Positions 15,153-16,534 of a DNA stretch of 64,000 bases are shown piece by piece (position 1 is the first letter of the stretch; each line of letters starts with the position of its first letter). The notes beneath the pieces were generated by a model, which was given only the letters and a program-made list of their open reading frames with translations, did no database searches and was not told the DNA's origin. Origin of the DNA: a bacterium (GTDB taxonomy: Bacteria; Patescibacteriota; Saccharimonadia; Saccharimonadales; UBA4665); assembly GCA_021803105.1 (NCBI GenBank), contig JAJZMC010000010.1, forward strand, positions 62,001 through 126,000, given 5' to 3'. Both the position numbers and the translations under genes were made by a program.

Positions 15153-15797
15153 ATGGCATGGCTTCAAAAAAAAATAGAAACTAGTAAGGTAACAAACTAC
15201 TATAGTCTTAATTTAACATATAAATTATTACTTATTGGCTTAGGTAATCCTGGAAAAAAATTTGACTATACACTACACAACATAGGTTTCCATGTTTTAG
15301 ATGAATTTATTAATAATTCAGATAATTTTAGCTCCTGGAAGTTAAATAATAATTTTAAATCATATGTTTCAGAAGGAATCATTGGTGAAAAAAAAATTAT
15401 AGCCGCTAAACCCCAAACCTTTATGAACAACAGCGGTTTTAGTGTTAAACAAATAATCGATTTTTATAAAATTACTCCCAAACAAATAGTCGTAATTTAC
15501 GATGACATAGATTTAGAATTTGGTTTAATAAGAACACAATTTGGAGGATCCAGTGCCGGGCATAATGGTATTAATTCAATTATTGATCAAGTAGGTGAAG
15601 ATTTTAACAGAATCAGAATCGGAACTAGTACAAAAACTATTAATAAACCAGCTAAAGAATTAGTTTTAAAAAAATTTTCTAAAAATCAACAAAAAAATTT
15701 TCCAATTTTATTTAAAGAAATAAACGCTCTCATCAACGAATTTATATTTAGTTCACAGCCTACCATATCACCCGAAACAAGAAAATTTATAAACTAA
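15153..15797 (+). CDS. pth: Peptidyl-tRNA hydrolase
   Basis: A 214-residue protein with the Pth signature IGLGNPGKKFDYTLHNIGF; the catalytic histidine lies in the HNIGF element. The later motif KPQTFMNNSG and the loop VIYDDIDLEFG...GGSSAGHNG are also present. It releases tRNA from prematurely dropped peptidyl-tRNA. About 25 residues precede the usual start of the domain, slightly longer than typical, but the TATAAT promoter 6 bases upstream supports this ATG. The stop codon lies in the left arm of a strong terminator. Confidence 0.95.
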   Translation: MAWLQKKIETSKVTNYYSLNLTYKLLLIGLGNPGKKFDYTLHNIGFHVLDEFINNSDNFSSWKLNNNFKSYVSEGIIGEKKIIAAKPQTFMNNSGFSVKQIIDFYKITPKQIVVIYDDIDLEFGLIRTQFGGSSAGHNGINSIIDQVGEDFNRIRIGTSTKTINKPAKELVLKKFSKNQQKNFPILFKEINALINEFIFSSQPTISPETRKFIN

Positions 15798-15838
15798 AAG
15801 AGTCTCCGGAGGGGGTGGGCACCGCCGGAGACTCTTTT
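15796..15838. terminator. Strong bidirectional terminator after pth
   Basis: A perfect 14-bp stem (15796-15809 with 15825-15838), GC-rich at the loop end, with a 15-nt loop. It ends in CTCTTTT when read in either direction, so it can stop both pth (plus) and the candidate minus-strand RNA coming from 16153. Confidence 0.88.
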
Positions 15839-16153
15839 AAGAGATAATTTAAAAAAATTATCTCTAATTTTAACCCTTCAACCCACCCCGATGAAACATC
15901 GATGTCAAATTTATAAATAAAGACTCGTGTCGGTTTAAAACCGTCATTTAGACTCATCTTGAACGGGGAACTTAAAAAACAAGTTTTTTGTCGTTAAAGG
16001 GGTTAGTATGTTTTAGAACGTTTTAAGATAAATCTTAACGTCATAATAAGTGGAGGGTAACAACTTTTTAGACGCCGTTCTAAAACAATCTAACGAATGT
16101 TAGATAGGGGTATAATGTGCAAGAATCCTTATTGTTTTATTAAGGACTCATAG
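15800..16153 (-). ncRNA. Candidate structured non-coding RNA of about 355 nt
   Basis: There is no convincing reading frame, but the interval is bounded by a near-consensus minus-strand promoter (16160-16188) and a strong terminator (15796-15838). The predicted transcript contains many helices: GTTTTAGAACG (plus-strand 16009-16019) pairs perfectly with CGTTCTAAAAC (16076-16086), and ATCTAAC-GAAT-GTTAGAT, CGATG-TTT-CATCG, CGGTTT/AAACCG and an 11-bp stem at 15840-15865 add to this. I find no tmRNA T-arm or resume frame, no RNase P ACAGAA or GAGGAAAG elements, and no SRP Alu or GGAA loop. The class is unknown. Confidence 0.6.
15840..15865 (-). other. AT-rich hairpin inside the candidate RNA
   Basis: AGAGATAATTT (15840-15850) pairs with AAATTATCTCT (15855-15865) around a four-base loop. 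It directly precedes the terminator on the minus strand and probably forms the penultimate helix of the candidate RNA. Confidence 0.6.
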
Positions 16154-16159
16154 TTTGCC

Positions 16160-16188
16160 ATTTTATCAAATTAATGTCATAATGTCAA
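16160..16188 (-). promoter_or_regulatory. Promoter of the candidate ncRNA
   Basis: Minus strand: TTGACA (16183-16188), exactly 17 bases, TAAAAT (16160-16165). Initiation is expected near 16153. No protein-coding gene lies downstream before the terminator at 15838. Confidence 0.75.
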
Positions 16189-16269: not shown

Positions 16270-16443
16270 ATGAAATTAACAATCATAATTAGTTTAACTA
16301 TTTTCGGCACAATAGGAAGTTATTTTGGAGAATTATTAGATCACGGTAATTGGTTAGGTGGATGGGGAATTATTTTAAGTACAATTGGTTCATTTTTTGG
16401 AATTTGGGTAGGTATTAAATTTTATAAAAACTATTTAGCTTAA
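16270..16443 (+). CDS. Small two-helix membrane protein (57 aa), function unknown
   Basis: Reads MKLTIIISLTIFGTIGSYFG, then ELLDHGNWLGGWGII and a second glycine-rich helix ending KFYKNYLA. There are two hydrophobic helices with glycine spacing, resembling in outline the GlsB/YeaQ-type small membrane proteins, though I would not assign the family. It lies between the candidate RNA and topA on the plus strand. A -10-like TAAAAT 6 bases upstream and codon use like its neighbours support it as a real gene. Confidence 0.65.
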   Translation: MKLTIIISLTIFGTIGSYFGELLDHGNWLGGWGIILSTIGSFFGIWVGIKFYKNYLA

Positions 16444-16534
16444 TTTTTTATTTTACTCCGTTATATAAATTAATTTTATAAATTACAGTATAATAATTTG
16501 CATAAAATTATTAAATACGCTTAAGTATAGTACT

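Follow-up and report, generated by a model that had tools for sequence, protein, structure and literature searches.

A conserved structured RNA gene adjacent to pth in an order of Saccharibacteria

What does the interval between pth and topA encode in Saccharibacteria? In the window analysed here, a stretch of 64,000 nucleotides, a sequence-only reading had noted a near-consensus promoter (TTGACA, 17 bases, TAAAAT) directed into a gene-free interval that ends at a perfect 14-bp terminator. Two identities had been proposed for its product: a structured RNA not described before and possibly confined to the lineage, or a known class of RNA in very divergent form. Both the promoter and the terminator were found on the minus strand, where they delimit an RNA gene of about 355 nt, the predicted start of which lies near 16153 (Table 1). 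The homologous RNAs of relatives measure 305-460 nt, with the exception of one of 564 nt.

The promoter matches the consensus at 11 of 12 positions, features an extended -10 element and ranks best among 13 promoter-like sites present in 2 kb. Since shuffled sequences yield 11.1 such sites, the promoter proves nothing by itself. It is strongly conserved together with the RNA, as evidenced by the consensus GTATTGACA..TTTGcTAaaAT.gCaA derived from 88 loci. A near-palindrome, TTGC-N6/7-GCAA, spans the -10 element in 54 of these loci, and may be either an operator or merely the extended -10 itself. The terminator consists of a perfect 14-bp stem (AAAAGAGTCTCCGG/CCGGAGACTCTTTT) and a loop, which reads GCGGUGCCCACCCCCUC in family f1. 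Because the loop is 15 nt long, the terminator was missed by a simple scanner. The hairpin overlaps the pth stop codon, and may thus serve both strands.

No coding signal was found in 91 homologues, in which the longest ORF has a median length of 39 codons versus 46 in shuffled sequences. The interval is gene-free, as had been claimed, throughout the RNA body, but not toward topA, where a plus-strand ORF of 57 codons occurs (approximately 16271-16444). This ORF, located between the RNA promoter and topA, would encode a small hydrophobic protein; similar ORFs are apparently present in nine loci (cluster 19).

Table 1 Features of the RNA gene and its promoter (positions are those of the window).
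Feature	Position	Strand	Description or basis
Promoter	16160..16188	-	-35 TTGACA 16183-16188; 17-nt spacer; extended -10 TG.TAAAAT 16160-16165
RNA	15797..16153	-	Fold, alignment of relatives
P1, 5' hairpin	16123..16149	-	Variable sequence, pairing mostly retained
Conserved 5' linker GCACMUUAUACCCCY..UCUAAC	16099..16120	-	Alignment of relatives
P2 5' arm: GUUAG, small internal loop, GUUUUAGAACG	16076..16094	-	Covariation
P3 stem AAGU/ACUU, near-invariant loop UGUUACCCUCC	16048..16066	-	Alignment
P4, small variable hairpin within the P2 domain	16023..16038	-	Predicted fold
P2 3' arm: CGUUCUAAAAC, small internal loop, CUAAC	16002..16020	-	Covariation
P5 5' arm CCCUUUAAC	15993..16001	-	Pair counts across sequences
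Variable domain 2, predicted branched helices	15890..15992	-	Two significantly covarying pairs
Near-invariant GGGGUGGGUUGAAGGG (P5 3' arm and GGGGUGGG)	15874..15889	-	Alignment
AT-rich accessory hairpin preceding the terminator	15840..15865	-	Absent from some relatives
Intrinsic terminator	15796..15838	-	14-bp stem, near-invariant loop, U-tract; seven significantly covarying pairs

None of the 4227 families of Rfam 15 scored above the gathering threshold at 15797-16153, and a single tRNA was the only hit in the whole window. At permissive thresholds the locus gave weak sub-threshold matches to miRNA and sRNA families, which are not credible. Infernal thus returned no strong match to the three classes that the sequence-only reading had named. 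RNase P RNA (RF00010) had no match at the locus, and the copy belonging to the genome maps to G000:C3:76502-76860 (247.6 bits). Similarly, tmRNA (RF00023), the hallmark of which is a tRNA-like domain combined with a tag reading frame, was detected at the locus by neither cmscan nor ARAGORN, and is encoded at G000:C5:40830-41220 (74.7 bits). 6S RNAs are roughly 180-200 nt long and feature a central bubble; the corresponding model (RF00013) matched neither the locus nor any other region of the same genome. Sub-threshold 6S-like matches, located about 0.4-1.2 kb from rnpB, were identified in three relatives (G025:C51:16563-16716, G011:C5:117588-117670 and G010:C1:1304927-1305091), and probably represent the divergent 6S RNA of the order. 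Bacterial SRP RNAs are marked by a conserved S-domain hairpin; the SRP RNA model (RF00169) gave no match at the locus, and no match above the cut-off in any of 40 genomes. With RNase P RNA and tmRNA at other loci, 6S-like sequences near rnpB, and neither SRP RNA nor Ffh detected, the proposal of a known class in divergent form is not supported. The missing gathering hit, along with the order-wide conservation and the covariation reported below, favours the other proposal, an undescribed and possibly lineage-specific RNA. No family, paper or annotation describing this RNA was found in a search whose coverage left out preprints and most subscription journals. The RNA would form a new family, although it may eventually turn out to work by a familiar mechanism.

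When 40 related genomes, belonging to 17 families, were searched at the DNA level, 39 gave matches at E <= 1; a few are weak and probably due to chance, and most are strong and span many of the 17 families. When a collection covering 84,980 species was searched with a degenerate core pattern, 95 stretches were retrieved. Among the matches listed, the named organisms are Saccharibacteria/Saccharimonadia or Patescibacteria, the others being unlabelled MAGs. The covariance model of the P2/P3 domain recognized 23 of 32 order members and none of the 348 Patescibacteria sampled outside the order. With a broader covariance model, the core domain was detected in 239 of 393 order genomes, representing 130 of 156 genera. 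Order genomes with no match exist, and genera g39 and g45 (family f18) mostly have none, which may be due to divergence, strict filters or loss. In the class as a whole, a borderline match (E 0.008) came from a single genome that lies outside the order (G758). A DNA-pattern search of the phylum allowed too narrow a spacer, and missed even the copy in the window.

One strong match per genome is the rule. G445 features two copies with equal scores (C4:35619-35721 and C9:87725-87827), reflecting either a true duplication or an assembly artefact. The core pattern also occurs at 8149-8172 in L167 (IMGVR_UViG_3300049064_000004), a 38-kb contig from a viral collection, which may correspond to a provirus end or to host contamination.

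Neighbouring genes, named from their sequences, recur. Clusters containing pth lie 3' of the RNA, in convergent orientation, in 89 of 113 loci; on the 5' side, topA (83/113) and dprA (68/113) are divergently oriented. In a divergent family, dprA lies beside the RNA in 16 of 17 cases. Some loci have different neighbours, and the RNA is still there. In the genomes compared, this single-locus, order-wide pattern is that of a vertically inherited core gene kept in a nearly fixed place.

The minus strand folds with a z-score of -7.6, and none of 100 shuffled sequences is equally stable. The plus strand also folds well (z = -6.2), and folding alone consequently leaves the strand unchosen. Two elements of the earlier description, the 11-bp perfect long-range pair (GTTTTAGAACG/CGTTCTAAAAC) and the AT-rich stem ahead of the terminator, are indeed present. 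In 57 aligned cores, 96.7% of the cells are paired, compared with 82.4% after shuffling; two-sided changes occur at 14 of 21 pairs, and the signal is abolished by sliding the partner. The alignment of the 57 cores was fitted to the structure; sequences aligned without structure were therefore used as well, and gave concurring pair counts (83 sequences). P2 includes 17 pairs, in which 97.5% of the cells are paired, with two-sided compensatory changes at 11 pairs. Family f18 has another sequence in place of that of P2, with the pairing retained. P5 also occurs in compensated variants, such as CCCUUUAAG/CUUGAAGGG and CCCUUUCAC/GUGGAAGGG.

Covariation was assessed in 86 sequences by a purpose-written G-test with a tree-based null (E <= 0.05). 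Ten pairs were significant, all within the proposed helices: two in domain 2, one, borderline, in P2, and seven in the terminator, where any terminator could give such a signal. Covariation among relatives had been put forward as a check of the candidate, and both compensatory changes and pairs significant against a phylogeny-aware null were found. G-U combinations are far more frequent than A-C combinations in every helix (63 versus 3 in P2), and this asymmetry assigns the RNA to the minus strand. An own promoter, the lack of an ORF, a terminator and structural covariation together point to a stand-alone RNA gene.

The alignment of 20 relatives shows hardly any variation in the promoter, a 5' linker, the P2/P3 domain, GGGGUGGGUUGAAGGG or the loop of the terminator, whereas hairpins and linkers are free to differ in both sequence and length. 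Conservation is much higher in several loops and junctions than in the stems. The UCUAAC motif of the 5' linker, present in 71 of 90 sequences, might compete with P2 by pairing with GUUAGA, a possible alternative pairing that may constitute a switch. Based on complementarity, GGGGUGGG probably pairs with CCCACCCC of the terminator loop in a putative pseudoknot. Both segments vary too little for covariation to lend support to this interaction, and a few sequences (L093, L119 and L013) weaken it.

We consider it somewhat probable that the gene encodes a housekeeping RNA of this order of Saccharibacteria, transcribed constitutively and acting in trans as the scaffold of a ribonucleoprotein. The strong sigma-70-type promoter would drive constitutive, presumably high, expression, and the intrinsic terminator would end the transcript. 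Four elements would make up the fold: P1, the long-stem domain formed by P2, P3 and P4, the domain that P5 closes, and the terminator hairpin, the loop of which would probably pair back to GGGGUGGG and thereby clamp the 3' terminus. One or several proteins would bind the RNA at near-invariant segments that are single-stranded or located in loops (GCACCUUAUACCCC, UGUUACCCUCC and GCCCACCC), and the RNA would therefore act as a scaffold. Its conservation suggests a basic cellular job. A bolder version, which we hold to be unlikely, places the RNA at the heart of a ribonucleoprotein machine that is specific to the order, possibly essential and unparalleled in other bacteria, serving, for instance, translation or protein targeting in cells with no detectable SRP.

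Several near-invariant segments are C-rich, and at least one lies in an apical loop. The RNA could accordingly be a trans-acting base-pairing regulator, the C-rich loops of which (CCCUCC, CCCACCC) bind G-rich ribosome-binding sites. Start sites were surveyed in 400 kb of G000 (L168-L187), about half of the genome, comprising 329 genes. GGAG-type Shine-Dalgarno motifs are found at approximately 10% of the genes (33/329 versus 2/329 in the control), which offers targets to such a regulator but makes them infrequent. Exact 7-9-nt complements of the P3 and terminator loops show no clear enrichment at starts (P3 7-mers, 10/329 versus 44/1645). Complements of 5' linker 7-mers are mildly enriched (17/329 versus 32/1645), possibly because of a TATAA-like composition. 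Complementarity to rRNA reached 7-9 nt at best, no better than shuffled motifs, in the rRNA-bearing end of one contig, in which the 16S 3' end was unlocated. The start-site and rRNA results lower the likelihood of a base-pairing role, which we rate as rather doubtful, if still deserving of attention. Of the same 329 genes of G000, 64 have ATAAT just upstream of the start, versus 21 in the control; such TATAAT-like words suggest that many transcripts are leaderless.

Other readings are less probable. Control in cis, either of pth by its terminator region or by antisense transcription, or of dprA/topA, would fit an RNA that is convergent with pth, has its terminator over the pth stop codon and diverges from dprA/topA in most loci. 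However, transcription points away from dprA/topA, the RNA body overlaps no adjacent coding sequence, and the RNA persists where the neighbours differ, making this quite improbable. We give slightly less credit to a regulator that binds RNA polymerase in the manner of 6S RNA, or to a second 6S RNA: the similar punctuation, the presumed abundance and the long P2 helix with its small internal loop are in keeping with it, but length and the Rfam search speak against it, as do the 6S-like sequences near rnpB. A ribozyme would suit the size, the branched fold, the likely pseudoknot and the near-invariant internal nucleotides; however, the RNA resembles no known ribozyme family and RNase P RNA is encoded elsewhere, leaving this a slim prospect. 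The lack of any SRP RNA above the cut-off in 40 genomes would leave room for a highly diverged SRP RNA or a functional replacement. That idea is very hard to credit, as the locus has no SRP match and the Ffh M domain (PF02978) is likewise undetected in the 40 related genomes, while 14 of 14 controls were positive. Moreover, SRP loss has been reported for Parcubacteria (PMC4508563), and the RNA is found in none of the 348 genomes sampled outside the order in the phylum.

Saccharibacteria are epibiotic parasites with tiny genomes, and the maintenance of a 350-nt RNA across 130 genera, in genomes of about 0.5-1.6 Mb, indicates real selection. Large, stand-alone structured RNAs conserved across an order have often turned out to be central to the cell. 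As some Saccharibacteria are culturable, the expression, partner and function of the RNA could be tested. The RNA also offers a marker and a candidate Rfam family.

The RNA resembles tmRNA and RNase P RNA in length, in promoter and terminator punctuation and in being single-copy; both of these, however, map to other loci of the same genome. Like 6S RNA, it is a stand-alone RNA with long helices, but it is twice as long and has no 6S match, and relatives carry 6S-like sequences near rnpB. Conserved C-rich loops are shared with the C-rich-loop sRNAs of Firmicutes, such as RsaE and RNAIII; in contrast to these, start sites in about half of the genome show no clear excess of sequences complementary to its loops, and its fold is larger and more deeply conserved. 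Further parallels are raiA, OLE, GOLLD and ROOL, large structured stand-alone bacterial RNAs discovered by comparative genomics. Like them, the new RNA is long, highly structured and conserved beyond the needs of a base-pairing sRNA. It differs from them in having no Rfam match at the cut-off, in belonging to another lineage and in its fixed pth/dprA/topA locus.
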